DNA of 64,000 nt. Source: Stomatobaculum sp. F0698. Its GTDB lineage: Bacteria; Bacillota; Clostridia; Lachnospirales; Lachnospiraceae. A model generated the notes under the pieces. That model was given only the letters and a program-made list of their open reading frames with translations, was not told where the DNA came from and did not search any database. Location: the NCBI RefSeq assembly GCF_030644385.1, contig NZ_CP130060.1:1860001-1924000 (forward strand), read 5' to 3'. The translations under genes were made by a program, and so were the position numbers. Of the stretch, positions 52,200 to 62,557 are shown in pieces (position 1 is the stretch's first letter; each line of letters starts with the position of its first letter).

Positions 52200-53615
52200 A
52201 TGGGAGGCATCTTTGCATCGGCACTCAAAGAGGATTGTGTCTTTGATCTTTTCTTTGGCACGGATTATCACTCGCACCTCGGCACGCGGCGCGGCGGCAT
52301 GGCCGTCTACGGAAAGAAAGGCTTTGACCGCGCCATTCACAACATAGAAAACAGCCCCTTCCGCACCAAGTTTGCGGATGATGTGAAGACCATGGAGGGA
52401 AACCTCGGCATCGGATGTATTTCCGACTACGAGGCGCAGCCTCTCATTGTGCGCTCCCACCACGGCACCTATGCAATCACGACAGTCGGTCGCATCAACA
52501 ACCTGAATGTGCTCTCGGATGAGCTCTTAAAGAACAACGGCTCCTCCTTCCTCGAGATGAGCGGCGGCTTCATCAATCCGACCGAGTTGGTCGCAGCGCT
52601 GATTAACCGCAAAGACAATCTGATCGAGGGACTTCGCTACGCCCAGGAAATGATTGACGGCTCCATGAGCATTATGCTCCTGACCCCGCAGGGCATCTAT
52701 CTGTCCCGCGACAAGCTCGGTAGAACGCCGATTGTTGTGGGGCGCAAGGCGGAGGGCTACTGCGCCTCCTTCGAGAGTTTTGCCTATCTGAATCTTGGTT
52801 ACGAGGACTTCCGCGAACTGGGCCCCGGCGAAATTGCCGTGATGACCCCTGAGGCGCTCACAACCCTCTCCGCCCCCGGAAAGAAGATGCGCATCTGCAC
52901 CTTCCTCTGGGTCTACTACGGCTATCCCTCCTCTTCCTACGAGGGCGTATCCGTCGAGGCCATGCGCGTGCGCTGCGGTGAGGAACTCGCAAAACGCGAC
53001 CACATGAGCCACGAGCAGATTGACTCGGTGGCAGGTGTTCCGGACTCCGGTACCGCGCACGCAATCGGCTACGCAAATGAGTCCGGCGTTCCGTTCGCAC
53101 GGCCCTTTATCAAGTACACGCCGACCTGGCCGCGGTCTTTCATGCCGACCATTCAGGATAAGCGAGATCTCATCGCAAAGATGAAGCTGATTCCGGTGCA
53201 CGAGCTCATCAACGGACAGCGCCTGCTCTTAATCGACGACTCCATTGTCCGCGGCACCCAGCTCCGCGAAACCACCGAGTTCCTGTACCACAGCGGTGCA
53301 AAGGAAGTCCATGTTCGTCCGGCCTGCCCGCCGCTGCTCTTCGGCTGTAAGTACCTGAACTTCTCACGCTCGACCGGTGAGATGGAGCTCATCACGCGGC
53401 GCATGATACGCGACGCCGAGGGCGAGAATGTGAGCAGAGAAGTTCTGACAGACTATGCAAACCCGGACTCCGAGCGCTATCAGGCGATGCTCGATGTCAT
53501 CTGCAAGCAGCTGAACTTTACAACCCTCCGCTATAACCGCCTCGACGACCTCATCAAGGCTGTCGGCATCGACCGCGATAAGCTCTGTACCTATTGCTGG
53601 GACGGTCGGGAGTAA
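52200..53615 (+). CDS. PurF-like protein lacking the catalytic cysteine
   Basis: 471 residues in the order of amidophosphoribosyltransferase: an N-terminal Ntn-type glutaminase domain and a C-terminal phosphoribosyltransferase domain with the PRPP loop LLLIDDSIVRGTQ. In true PurF the sequence begins M-C-G-I and the Cys, freed at the N-terminus, attacks glutamine. Here it begins M-G-G-I, so the nucleophile is Gly. Other glutaminase-domain residues (THLGTRRGG-like: YHSHLGTRRGGMAV) remain. It ends with a CTYCW cysteine pair. It might use free ammonia, another partner, or act as a sensor. Monocistronic; no other pur gene nearby. AAGGAAGG precedes ATG 52200. Confidence 0.85.
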   Translation: MGGIFASALKEDCVFDLFFGTDYHSHLGTRRGGMAVYGKKGFDRAIHNIENSPFRTKFADDVKTMEGNLGIGCISDYEAQPLIVRSHHGTYAITTVGRINNLNVLSDELLKNNGSSFLEMSGGFINPTELVAALINRKDNLIEGLRYAQEMIDGSMSIMLLTPQGIYLSRDKLGRTPIVVGRKAEGYCASFESFAYLNLGYEDFRELGPGEIAVMTPEALTTLSAPGKKMRICTFLWVYYGYPSSSYEGVSVEAMRVRCGEELAKRDHMSHEQIDSVAGVPDSGTAHAIGYANESGVPFARPFIKYTPTWPRSFMPTIQDKRDLIAKMKLIPVHELINGQRLLLIDDSIVRGTQLRETTEFLYHSGAKEVHVRPACPPLLFGCKYLNFSRSTGEMELITRRMIRDAEGENVSREVLTDYANPDSERYQAMLDVICKQLNFTTLRYNRLDDLIKAVGIDRDKLCTYCWDGRE

Positions 53616-53669: not shown

Positions 53670-54310
53670 GCCTCAAACAGTAGCAAGGCACCAAACTTCC
53701 CGGTATGAAGTTCACTCCGTATTCTGTGCCGCGCGCCTTTCGCAGTTCTCTACGGAAAGTCACTTTGCCCCGGGTCCGAATCTCCTATTTTCACTTCTCA
53801 TGAACCGAAGTAAAGCGCCCTCCGCTTCATCTCGTTCAAGAAGGTCTCACCCTGCAAGCTTTCATTCGACCAACGCGACCAACGTTATCGGGGCTTCTTT
53901 CGACTCTTCTGCCGACTCTTTTAATCGTCCTTCCGTTTGCTGTCAGATTAGTCTAAGCGTTACCTGTCACATGACACATTCCAAGAAGACCACATTGCAT
54001 GCTTCATGACCTTGTCTTCCAAACATATTGTTTCAAGGAAGCTGTTTACCAACTTTTTTATCCTATAACGCAACTTTCCCGAGGCTTTTACCAACGCTTC
54101 CGTCGGCAATGTTGTCCGTCCTTCCGCTCGCTGTCACAGAATTTCTCTTTGTACTCCCCCATAAAAGGGAGGAGGCCGGGGGCTTTCGCTCCCGGCCAGT
54201 ATATGAAAAAAAGATGTTCGCGGTTTCCCGCTTGCTATGTTTCTATGATAGCGAAGAGTCGTGATAAATTCATGTGCGCCTTGTAACGCTTTTTCAAAGA
54301 AATTATGAAT
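53670..54310 (-). ncRNA. Candidate large structured non-coding RNA
   Basis: A roughly 640-nt stretch with no convincing coding frame. On the minus strand it forms many good stems: GGCCGGG/CCCGGCC (54174-54197) enclosing GCGAAAGC, GCGG-GAAA-CCGC (54220-54231), GCTAT/ATAGC (54234-54252), CCCGG/CCGGG (53699-53703 with 53770-53774) enclosing CCGTA/TACGG (53717-53721 with 53751-53755), and hairpins such as ACTTC...GAAGT. GAAA tetraloops appear only when read on the minus strand. A 19-nt motif near 53927-53945 recurs with few changes at 54118-54136 inside a longer diverged repeat. It lies after the MATE gene and ends at the bidirectional terminator. No clear promoter; it may come from read-through. 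It could be an ornate RNA family such as ROOL or raiA, or an intron relic; I cannot tell. Confidence 0.5.
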
Positions 54311-54323
54311 AAATTATGAACGT

Positions 54324-55703
54324 TCACTCTTCCTTCAAGCCGAGCAAAAGGCAGAGCTTTCTGTGGCAGTGATGAAACGCGGGAATTAAGAAGCAATCCG
54401 CGGCAAGCCAGGCGAGCGGTGACGCAAAGAAGATTGCGTAGATACCGAAGAAGCGAACGCCGACAAAGCCCATGAAGGTGCGCGCTGCCATCTCCGCAAC
54501 GCCCGCCAAGATTGCAAAGACGGAATAGCCCATGCCCTGAATCGTAAAGCGCCACACATTGACCACCGTAAGGGCGCCATAGAAGGCTGCGTTTGCAAGC
54601 AGGAAGAGCTTTGCCTGTTGCAAAATTTCCGTCTGCTCCGCTGAGATGAAGAGCTGCGGCAGCTTGTCACCAAAGAGGAAGCAGAGCAGGAAGGCGAGAA
54701 GCCCGTAGAGTATGCCGATTCGCGTCGCCACATAAACGCCTTCCTTGACACGACGCAACTTGCCCGCGCCGACATTCTGACCCGCATAGGTGGCCATGGT
54801 CGCACCCAACGCATCGTAGACAGAGCAGAGGAACATGCTGATCTTCTGTCCCGCCGTCACAGCCGCAACCGTCACCGTGCCGAGCATATTGACCGCGCTC
54901 TGCACAATGACCGAACCGATTGCCGTAATCGAATACTGCAATCCCATCGGCAAGGCCATTGCAAGCAGGATTTCGCATTTTCTGCGGTCAAAGTTAAGCT
55001 CCCGCGGCGCAAAACGGAGCAACGGAAACTTCTTCCGCATATAAAAGATGCACAGAATACCGGAGACCGCCTGCGAGAACACGGTCGCAAGCGCGGGACC
55101 GTTCACGCTGAAGCCGAACCCGACAATCGTCACAAAGTCGAGGACAATGTTGATGACCGATGCGAGAATCAAGAAGTACACCGGTGTCTTCGAGTCTCCC
55201 AGGGCACGAATCAGGCTCGCCGTCACGTTGTAGAGATAAGTGGTCGGAATGCCAAGGAAGATGATAAAGATATATTGATAGGCATAGGGCATGATTTCCT
55301 CCGGCGTCTGCGTCCATATGAGGAGGGGCTTCGTAAAGATCGCAACGAGTCCCGTCACGACAAACGAAAAAATCAGGCTGAGCCATATGGTATTCGCGAT
55401 AAACTTGCGCATATCCGTATAATCACGCGCACCGAAGCGCTGTGCCACCGGAATCGCAAAGCCCGAGGACATACCGATCACAAAGCCGTTGATCAGGAAG
55501 TTAATCGCCGCCGTGGAACCAACGCCCGCAAGTGCATTGATGCTGAGGTAACGTCCCACGATTACCGTATCCGCCATGCTGTAAAACTGCTGGAACAAGG
55601 TTCCCAGTAACATGGGAATCGCAAATCCCAAAATGAGCGCCGTCGGGCTTCCCGCCGTCATGTCGACTATCGCTGCCTTCTTGCTTCTCATCATTTCCTT
55701 CAT
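54324..55703 (-). CDS. MATE-family efflux transporter
   Basis: 459 residues, twelve helices in two homologous halves (PMLLGTLFQQFYSMADTVIVGRY in the first; MALPMGLQYSITAIGSVIVQSAVN in the second), the NorM/DinF-like multidrug and toxin extrusion layout. It exports cationic compounds with a sodium or proton gradient. ATG at 55703 follows GGAGGTG; the longer frame has no ribosome site. An operator-like palindrome lies 35 nt upstream. Confidence 0.93.
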   Translation of the reverse strand: MKEMMRSKKAAIVDMTAGSPTALILGFAIPMLLGTLFQQFYSMADTVIVGRYLSINALAGVGSTAAINFLINGFVIGMSSGFAIPVAQRFGARDYTDMRKFIANTIWLSLIFSFVVTGLVAIFTKPLLIWTQTPEEIMPYAYQYIFIIFLGIPTTYLYNVTASLIRALGDSKTPVYFLILASVINIVLDFVTIVGFGFSVNGPALATVFSQAVSGILCIFYMRKKFPLLRFAPRELNFDRRKCEILLAMALPMGLQYSITAIGSVIVQSAVNMLGTVTVAAVTAGQKISMFLCSVYDALGATMATYAGQNVGAGKLRRVKEGVYVATRIGILYGLLAFLLCFLFGDKLPQLFISAEQTEILQQAKLFLLANAAFYGALTVVNVWRFTIQGMGYSVFAILAGVAEMAARTFMGFVGVRFFGIYAIFFASPLAWLAADCFLIPAFHHCHRKLCLLLGLKEE

Positions 55704-55737
55704 AGGTCGTTCACCTCCGTTCCGTTTAAAAAAATAA

Positions 55738-55759
55738 GATCGACAAAGAGTTGTCAATC
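55738..55759. promoter_or_regulatory. Operator-like palindrome before the MATE gene
   Basis: GATCGACAA-AGAG-TTGTCAATC, 9-bp arms with one mismatch. On the minus strand it contains TTGACA, so it overlaps the likely -35 region; a TetR- or MarR-type repressor site is possible. Confidence 0.45.
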
Positions 55760-55955
55760 TCATCGCACGAGACTCTCGTTATACACGCCTTGTAAGCGGA
55801 ATGCAAGCGGGATATTCGTTTTTTTTCGCTCTGAGGGACATGTATTCTATTTTATACAGTTTATTGCCCGACGCTTCTTGCCGTGTCTCCCCCGGCCTAT
55901 GCATCCGCCGCTTTCGAAGCGTCTGCTCTTTGACTTATTATGCTCTAATGAGAAT

Positions 55956-57475: not shown

Positions 57476-57546
57476 AGGCGACAACCGGATTCGGACCGGT
57501 GATCAGGGTTTTGCAGACCCACGCCTTACCACTTGGCTATGTCGCC
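57476..57546 (-). tRNA. tRNA-Cys (GCA)
   Basis: 71 nt. Anticodon loop CTGCAAA gives GCA. The discriminator is U, the cysteine identity base. CCA not encoded. Last gene of the rRNA operon. Confidence 0.95.
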
Positions 57547-57554
57547 ATATTAAG

Positions 57555-57627
57555 CTCCTCGTGTTGGACTCGAACCAACGACACCGCGGTTAACAGCCGC
57601 GTGCTCTACCGACTGAGCTAACAAGGA
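57555..57627 (-). tRNA. tRNA-Asn (GTT)
   Basis: 73 nt. Anticodon loop CTGTTAA gives GTT, discriminator G. Eight bases from tRNA-Cys. Confidence 0.95.
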
Positions 57628-57689
57628 TTATTTACACCCTGAAAACCGCACACAGAATTTTTATCTATTCATCTCTTTCCCAAACCCTT

Positions 57690-60582
<2,893 letters not shown>

Positions 60583-60767
60583 CTTACATGTTCTCTAGCG
60601 TAAGAACATGCGGGTTGGTCAACTCTGCTCTCGCAGAGTTACGTATTATTACATTATAGACATGACTTTCGCCACATCTATCGGATACGACTTTCGTCGT
60701 ATCACCTCGGATGTCTAGATATTCTTAATTGAATATTCATTCTGTATGCGATTTTCAAGGTGCAAAC

Positions 60768-60841
<74 letters not shown>

Positions 60842-60848
60842 ATAATAA

Positions 60849-60965
60849 TCCGGCGCCCGCCTATTCTCCCATGCCGTTACCAGCATAGTACCTTCGGCCG
60901 TCTTCCTCTTAACCGTCGTGTTCGGGATGGGAACGGGTGTTTCAAGAAGACGCATCGACACCGGA
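60849..60965 (-). rRNA. 5S ribosomal RNA, placed between 16S and 23S
   Basis: About 117 nt. Loop B/C signature CCCGTTCCCATCCCGAACACG is present (in the minus strand), with ends CCGGTG and CGCCGG paired. Its place upstream of 23S, 7 nt from tRNA-Ile, is not the usual 16S-23S-5S order. Confidence 0.95.
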
Positions 60966-61020
60966 AATCCGGTTGAACCTTTGATCAAAAACCAGACAGC
61001 ACAAACAACCCTTACTTCTT

Positions 61021-62557
<1,537 letters not shown>

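Follow-up and report, generated by a model that had tools for sequence, protein, structure and literature searches.

What occupies the gap between a PurF-like gene (52200-53615, plus strand) and a MATE gene (54324-55763, minus strand, with a Pfam MatE match) in Stomatobaculum sp. F0698 is the question that this locus raises. Positions refer throughout to the window, the whole stretch of 64,000 nucleotides that was analysed. A preliminary description, made from the letters of the sequence, had held that the region from 53670 to 54310 has no credible protein frame and that its minus strand encodes a large ornate RNA of about 640 nt that could not be assigned to a known family. In agreement with that description, a protein or pseudogene was rejected, as four frames of the gap were compared with Pfam and gave no match. 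The region is, however, a composite, made up of a small RNA (sRNA) gene on the minus strand, the debris of an insertion element (IS) and stretches without detected relatives, and by comparison with relatives the conserved part of the gap is only approximately 85 nt (54238-54154) together with a promoter. The proposal of a non-coding RNA on the minus strand that belongs to no known family is retained, as a hairpin in this part covaries and the RNA has no match in Rfam, and the reading as a giant RNA nevertheless led to a real small one.

Searches of the window's own genome and of the genus divide the gap into distinct parts. Outside the IS end, the sole part matched in the genus is positions 1-175 of the minus-strand query (window 54330-54156), for which BLAST found matches in five further genomes of the genus and a pattern search found one in a sixth. 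Four species have the match close to purF and a fifth has it on the purF contig, and matches also occur at other places, with two copies in some species. For the rest of the gap, outside the sRNA part and the IS end, no match was found at E≤1e-3 among 97 relatives. The preliminary description had reported a module with a GGAAGGACG-type motif that occurs twice, 191 nt apart and diverged, and our repeat comparison recovered it as a direct repeat of 66 nt on the minus strand (54071-54136 and 53880-53945, 69.7% identity), the two copies of which flank the IS end on both sides; a search of the own genome with the whole gap listed no further copy. The intrinsic terminator with which the large RNA was said to end is present at 53665-53633, just behind purF, with a stem that carries T-runs on either strand. 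Elsewhere in the window, the rRNA genes (57476-62557, minus strand) are in the order 16S, 5S, tRNA, 23S, tRNAs; the usual order of rRNA genes is 16S-23S-5S.

The middle of the gap (53969-54069, minus strand) resembles a degenerate left end of an IS1249-type element, with a repeat end at 54069-54045 and then a leader that reaches the transposase start at 54007. Part of this end, query positions 286-362 (window 54045-53969), was found at four other places in the own genome and at four in a sister species. Two loci that have 73 and 77 nt in common with the window at 79% and 74% identity (L036 and L040, respectively) weakly matched the IS1249 family model NF033544 (positions 3-36, E 1.3e-4, and positions 2-49, E 1.8e-4), both below the cut-off, and another species of the genus has an IS1249-type gene that is more complete and contains one stop (L033). 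The gap yielded neither a partner repeat nor a right end to match, there was no IS1249 family match above the cut-off in the window's genome, and a tblastn search of the gap with IS1249-type proteins gave noise only among the matches listed. These features are consistent with a fragment of an IS1249-type element rather than an intact one. Short, MITE-like end fragments of IS1249 type were also seen in the own genome (L002, L003, L004, and L006) and in the sister species (L012 and L015-L017).

The sRNA, which we term type I, and its promoter together span 54321-54154 on the minus strand. The predicted transcript (54154-54238), for which we infer a start about 7 nt past the -10 element and an end at a terminator-like stem, would consist of arm 1, UCUUUUUUUCAUAUAC (54199-54214), antisense to a start codon then lysine codons, a hairpin, GGCCGGGAGC-GAAA-GCCCCCGGCC (54174-54198), that bridges both arms, arm 2, UCCUCCC (54167-54173), antisense to a Shine-Dalgarno (SD) sequence, and the terminator-like stem, CUCCC-UUUUAU-GGGGGAG (54154-54171), all on the minus strand. 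The bridging hairpin is the strong GGCCGGG hairpin that the preliminary description had singled out, at 54198-54174. The general layout of type I is 5'-CUUUUUCAUAAUA-hairpin-UCCUCCC-3', with the first arm optionally preceded by A, and the complement of the arms reads GGGAGGA followed by UAUUAUGAAAAAG, that is, an SD sequence and then a start codon with lysine codons.

A model, R1, was derived from the nine genus copies, and the 27 best non-genus matches to it were read, all of which have the type I plan; these matches, the second copy of one genus member and the nine genus copies constitute alignment A3 (n = 37). The collected relatives substantiate the expected covariation in the small RNA only, where all ten hairpin pairs have changed on both sides and 92.4% of the cells in A3 pair. 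The covariation score is 0.620 vs. 0.195 (sd 0.021) in shuffled alignments and ≤0.126 when the partner is slid by 1-3 columns. Both arms are conserved outside the covarying hairpin (alignments A3, for type I, and A4). A U-tract follows 22 of the 37 type I copies and 18 of 33 copies of a second type described below (background, 45 of 310), and an A-tract is present on the mirror side of 17 of the 37 type I copies. As the mirror tract is almost as frequent, U-tracts are not usable as evidence of strand and were rejected as such. The window copy is without a U-tract, hence read-through to 53633 is possible and could produce a transcript of approximately 600 nt, consisting of sRNA and debris, in this species.

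Directly behind the MATE stop codon is a direct-repeat regulator box, GTTCATAATTTATTCATA (54304-54321, minus strand), which heads an array of repeats spaced by 11 bp towards a -10 element, TATCAT (54245-54250, minus strand), located 53 nt after the box. The upstream repeats of type I, also at 11-bp spacing, are best written GTTCATAnTTTGTTCATA and are weak in a few copies. The -10 element was searched for as the best TAnnnT with at least four matches, 22-56 nt behind the box for type I and 4-39 nt for type II. In 26 of 37 type I copies, among them the window copy, its distance from the first box is exactly 53 nt, and in 28 of 33 type II copies its distance from the box is exactly 9 nt; 53 nt equals 9 + 4 × 11, that of type II plus four repeat periods. 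At 37 box sites that have neither RNA the distances are scattered (4 of 37 at 9 nt). The fixed spacing of box and -10 identifies minus as the direction and suggests a PhoB/OmpR-like regulator, and a response regulator of this type probably drives the RNAs. The minus direction had been proposed previously on the basis of tetraloops, and was correct, although not for that reason: in place of the many GNRA-tetraloop stems described on the minus strand, we counted one GNRA-capped hairpin there and none on the plus strand (shuffled means 0.77 and 0.20, respectively), a chance level that provides no evidence of strand.

Searching 150 family genomes with the box pattern, one mismatch allowed, identified 101 places in 77 genomes, vs. 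5 for the reversed pattern. Three places that overlap others and nine beside known matches to a further model, R2, were left out and the remaining 89 sites were fetched (one region was fetched in duplicate, as L334 and L355, and L355 was left out of counts). By pattern, 33 of the 89 sites lead to the type II RNA, found in this way from the box alone, 19 to type I and 37 to neither. Among the sites without a pattern match, L309 and L318 are type I-like by eye and L305 has a type II promoter cut by the contig end. At L316 and L274 the sequence behind the box may contain further siblings, candidate RNAs that have anti-AUG-like arms but are not a clear case of either type; L316, in which a hairpin is followed by ACCTCCTTTC, appears type II-like by eye. 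The box was also observed at type IV pilus genes, at up to six sites: between T2SSE (PilT-like) and T2SSF (PilC-like) genes by Pfam (L273 and L295), before a PilC-like gene with a weak T2SSF hit (L321), beside a gene in which Pfam detects the pilin N-methylation motif (L347), and at two sites that are pilus-like by eye and without a Pfam match (L330 and L333).

The type II layout is UUUUUUCAUAAU(A/U)-(GCCC..GGGC)-ACUCCUCA, in which an anti-AUG arm (UUUUUUCAUAAU), a hairpin and an anti-SD arm (CUCCUCA) succeed one another. Six of eight pairs of the type II hairpin have changed on both sides, with a covariation score of 0.427 vs. 0.172 in shuffled alignments. The type II model, R3, matched 137 of 397 family genomes (119 of 334 genera) at E≤1e-3. 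It had no match in the window's genome, which matched type I only, or in the two other genus members of the sample.

For type I, R1 matched 118 of 397 family genomes at E≤0.01, and R2 matched 205 of 397 (176 of 334 genera) at E≤1e-3, with a single match in 173 of the 205. Under these strict filters R2 had no match in 192 of the 397, which may reflect absence or divergence, and in a sample of the class it matched 11 of 391 genomes, all 11 of which belong to the window's own family. The two models cross-match, as R2 scores known type II loci at up to 47.9 bits and R3 scores known type I loci at up to 43.0, which corresponds roughly to E 1e-3 in a genome, and the counts at that threshold (205 and 137) are consequently in part a mixture of the two types; no fewer than three R3 places (in G048, G159, and G280, one each) are in fact type I places. 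Since the 33 type II loci all fell well short of the R2 score that corresponds to E≤1e-5, we take the 153 of 397 genomes matched at that threshold (about four in ten) as the safe count for type I; the corresponding count for R3 is 105 of 397. At E≤1e-5, 73 genomes have both types, 80 type I only, 32 type II only and 212 neither (odds ratio 6.0, p ~8e-14, uncorrected for relatedness). At E≤1e-3 the same categories number 117, 88, 20, and 172, with an odds ratio of 11.4 that is inflated by cross-matching. In 52 genomes R2 matched only weakly, and 27 of these were matched by R3 as well. Five genomes (G039, G052, G222, G364, and G404) have four to six R2 matches each, and the RNA may have expanded in these, although some of the matches are possibly type II.

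A strict pattern search of named genomes gave at least 120 stretches, and 71 of the 80 matches listed are from Lachnospiraceae by family or genus name, the other nine having generic or odd names. The genera that we take to be Lachnospiraceae are Dorea, Blautia, Roseburia, Butyrivibrio, Coprococcus, Mediterraneibacter, Acetatifactor, and others. Based on the 71 of 80 we refer to the host family of the RNA as Lachnospiraceae. A phage origin was rejected, as viral_contigs had no place that fitted either of two patterns, one per type.

The window was also searched against 4227 Rfam families, including ROOL, raiA, OLE, GOLLD, HEARO, and group II introns, the families named in the preliminary description. 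At the gathering threshold there were seven rRNA or tRNA matches elsewhere in the window and none in the gap, and at E≤10 the gap had two chance hits to other families (E 8.2 and 8.9). In 20 type I loci there were two hits at E≤1, neither of them over the RNA. In 20 type II loci there were five, all below gathering, of which four were to miRNA families; these four were weak, far below gathering, and lay partly over the 3' end of the type II RNA in L275 and L336. A known Rfam family was therefore rejected as the identity of the RNA, there being no match at gathering in the gap or over the RNA in the 40 loci tested.

If the hairpin is removed, the distance between the anti-SD and anti-AUG sequences is 4-9 nt in 34 of the 36 type I copies that were measurable (37 tried) and 3-8 nt in all 33 of type II. 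The natural distance from GGAGG to the start codon is 5-9 nt in 76 of 111 cases (loci L084-L163), and the peaks differ, at 5-6 nt for the RNAs and 8 nt for the genes. Joined into one strand, the arms gave a mean duplex energy of -11.05 kcal/mol with 337 start regions from their own loci, relative to -6.85 kcal/mol at +150 nt and -8.81 kcal/mol for shuffled arms on the start regions; the start regions were picked for an SD-like sequence, which favours any anti-SD RNA, a bias that the shuffled-arm control lessens only. The predicted pairing is with start regions as a class, and no one target is dominant.

Sibling trans-acting sRNAs that block translation under one PhoB/OmpR-type regulator are, with high probability in our estimation, the best explanation of these features. 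A response regulator of this type would bind the tandem 11-bp repeats (GTTCATAnTTT) and activate transcription, as their geometry suggests. The resulting RNA of approximately 85 nt would present the arms CUUUUUCAU (antisense to AUGAAAAAG) and UCCUCCC (antisense to SD) on either side of the hairpin, and with the hairpin folded out the arms would abut as one antisense of GGGAGGA-(4..9 nt)-AUGAAAAAG. Such an RNA would cover the ribosome-binding site and start codon of its target mRNAs, and initiation would be blocked. Type II would be its sibling under the same box in many relatives. Comparison of sequences establishes a conserved covarying hairpin, conserved arms, a promoter of fixed spacing and a sibling of the same plan, and from these we infer transcription, control by a response regulator and a block of initiation on mRNAs. 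More speculatively, and leaning slightly against it ourselves, we can picture a family-wide regulon of two split-antisense RNAs, types I and II, in which the hairpin serves as a ruler for the SD-to-start distance and makes the two seeds act as one antisense; one conserved PhoB/OmpR-type system would drive both RNAs, perhaps with type IV pilus genes, and in Lachnospiraceae under stress the proteins that begin with MKK, secreted or envelope ones, would thereby be repressed as a broad class.

The alternatives to sibling sRNAs are less compatible with the data. One large ornate structured RNA of approximately 640 nt, which the preliminary description favoured, is refuted here as a conserved RNA and is to our minds scarcely credible. 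The fold of the whole region relative to shuffles is in its favour (53670-54310, z -2.74 minus and -3.39 plus, 40 shuffles per strand; with wider ends, z -2.98 minus and -1.61 plus, 20 shuffles), as are the module present twice, the terminator at the end, and an sRNA without its own U-tract, with which a single long transcript is possible in this species. The excess is, however, confined to the 94-nt sRNA part (54150-54243, z -3.9 on either strand, 150 shuffles), with the other 480 nt (53670-54149, z -1.05) at chance and the last 291 nt (53670-53960) at z -0.27 on the minus strand. Moreover, a large RNA does not agree with the restriction of genus matches outside the IS end to query nt 1-175, with a middle composed of an IS end that is also present at other places, or with the lack of an Rfam match. 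It is also conceivable that the plus strand is the active one, and that GGGAGGA, the hairpin and AUGAAAAAG mark where translation of a short leader peptide (MKKS.., MKKF..) begins, as the strand opposite the arms reads as an ideal ribosome site with AUG. We consider this very unlikely, as in the copies read by eye conservation of the peptide does not extend past approximately five codons, one genus copy (L009) stops after MKKS, and little is conserved on the side of the would-be plus-strand promoter, whereas on the minus side box and -10 are at fixed spacing and the box is followed by this layout again in type II.

Two further alternatives accept the RNA and differ as to its role or its control. 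The arms might serve a protein or the ribosome by sequestration, with UCCUCCC, which resembles the 3' end of 16S rRNA, mimicking the 16S anti-SD, and the prediction of pairing to start regions as a class with no dominant target fits this idea. It leaves the conservation of the anti-AUG arm CUUUUUCAU unexplained, however, and we judge it improbable. As to control, the direct repeats of 11 bp are as in the PhoB/OmpR family and the box resembles the E. coli Pho box, so the box could be a PhoP/PhoB box that responds to phosphate starvation. A box matrix was made from 31 of the 37 type I sites (L060, L070, L072, and L081 were omitted by hand, and L056 and L059 by a score rule) and used to scan 18 pstS loci of ~3.3-3.8 kb, of which five (L259-L263) are partial, such that their promoter may lie outside (second pieces L264 and L265 were left out). 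The best pstS site scored 10.5, within the background maximum of 10.6, vs. 12.8-28.8 at the 31 sRNA sites, and the window's genome has no match to TIGR02136. The lack of the box at the 18 pstS loci, five of them partial, argues against Pho control, and the Pho regulon was rejected on this basis, leaving it with only a slight chance of being correct. The direct repeat of HssR is GTTCATATT-N2-GTTCATATT, to which the letters of the regulator box bear a resemblance, so that an HssRS-like system may be a lead.

Sibling anti-SD/anti-start sRNAs under a two-component system, our preferred reading, are a known kind of regulator, and the new element here is the hairpin between the arms. The csRNAs of streptococci, in the accessible parts of the published accounts, are siblings of the CiaRH regulon under one response regulator, with five copies in pneumococcus; their promoters have a CiaR box, NTTAAG-N5-TTTAAG, in which N5 gives an 11-bp period and which was searched for with a -10 ten nt on, and they have anti-SD and anti-AUG sequences in unpaired parts (PMC3091779, PMC4507080). 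As far as those parts extend, the likeness comprises sibling RNAs, one regulator, repeats of 11-bp period and both anti-SD and anti-AUG sequences, and the predicted arms here likewise would offer unpaired sequence complementary to SD and start codon. In contrast, the box in those accounts is TTTAAG and here of GTTCATA type (GTTCATAnTTTGTTCATA), unlike the CiaR box, the csRNA anti-sites are described there as unpaired between two stem-loops and here flank a covarying hairpin, and the csRNA hosts belong to another class of bacteria. LhrC1-5 of Listeria, according to the accessible part of its report, is a multicopy sRNA controlled by LisRK and induced by cell-envelope stress, of which a UCCC motif binds SD sequences (PMC4132741). 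Multiple copies, two-component control and UCCC against SD are thus shared features, although that part of the report places three UCCC sites in loops and linker and mentions no comparable anti-AUG arm (PMC4132741). It is most likely, by analogy, that our RNA works like csRNAs and LhrC while not being a csRNA, by its box letters and architecture. The same part of that report lists UCCC among low-GC Gram-positive sRNAs, including RNAIII, RsaE, SprD, and FsrA (PMC4132741). These four are alike in having C-rich seeds against SD sequences. We know of no hairpin-bridged anti-start arm in any of them. ROOL, OLE, GOLLD, HEARO, and raiA are likewise non-coding and structured, but here the RNA is approximately 85 nt with one covarying hairpin and does not match them.

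A literature search by sequence letters and by words, for which most subscription papers were outside reach, found no description of such an RNA, and the family and its hairpin-bridged split antisense were found in none of Rfam or the literature searched. Non-coding transcripts are reported, in the accessible part of that study, in the Capp-Switch map of transcription start sites of Clostridium phytofermentans (PMC5171806). The present comparison provides a pair of sRNAs with strong covariation, at the E≤1e-5 frequencies given above, of which the promoter code and targeting logic are readable. Post-transcriptional control in Lachnospiraceae is, to our knowledge, nearly uncharted, and the pair opens to test the questions of the family's sRNA regulon, of the two-component system that drives it and of a hairpin that splices two seeds into one antisense.

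Type II has conserved neighbours; the names of the genes beside both RNAs were taken from one representative per cluster. Behind type II a convergent gene with a RelA/SpoT domain is present in 26 of 41 distinct loci (e.g., L266, L275, and L356-L385), and in 24 of 41 its opposite flank has a gene for a coiled-coil-like protein, the representative of which matched Phasin_2 just under the cut-off. For type I, a cyclophilin gene precedes the RNA in 20 of 64 loci and one for a sodium:alanine symporter follows it in 15 of 64. At two box sites from two genera (L281 and L313), the box precedes a gene that reads like 1-phosphofructokinase (MIHTLTLNPAIDRI).
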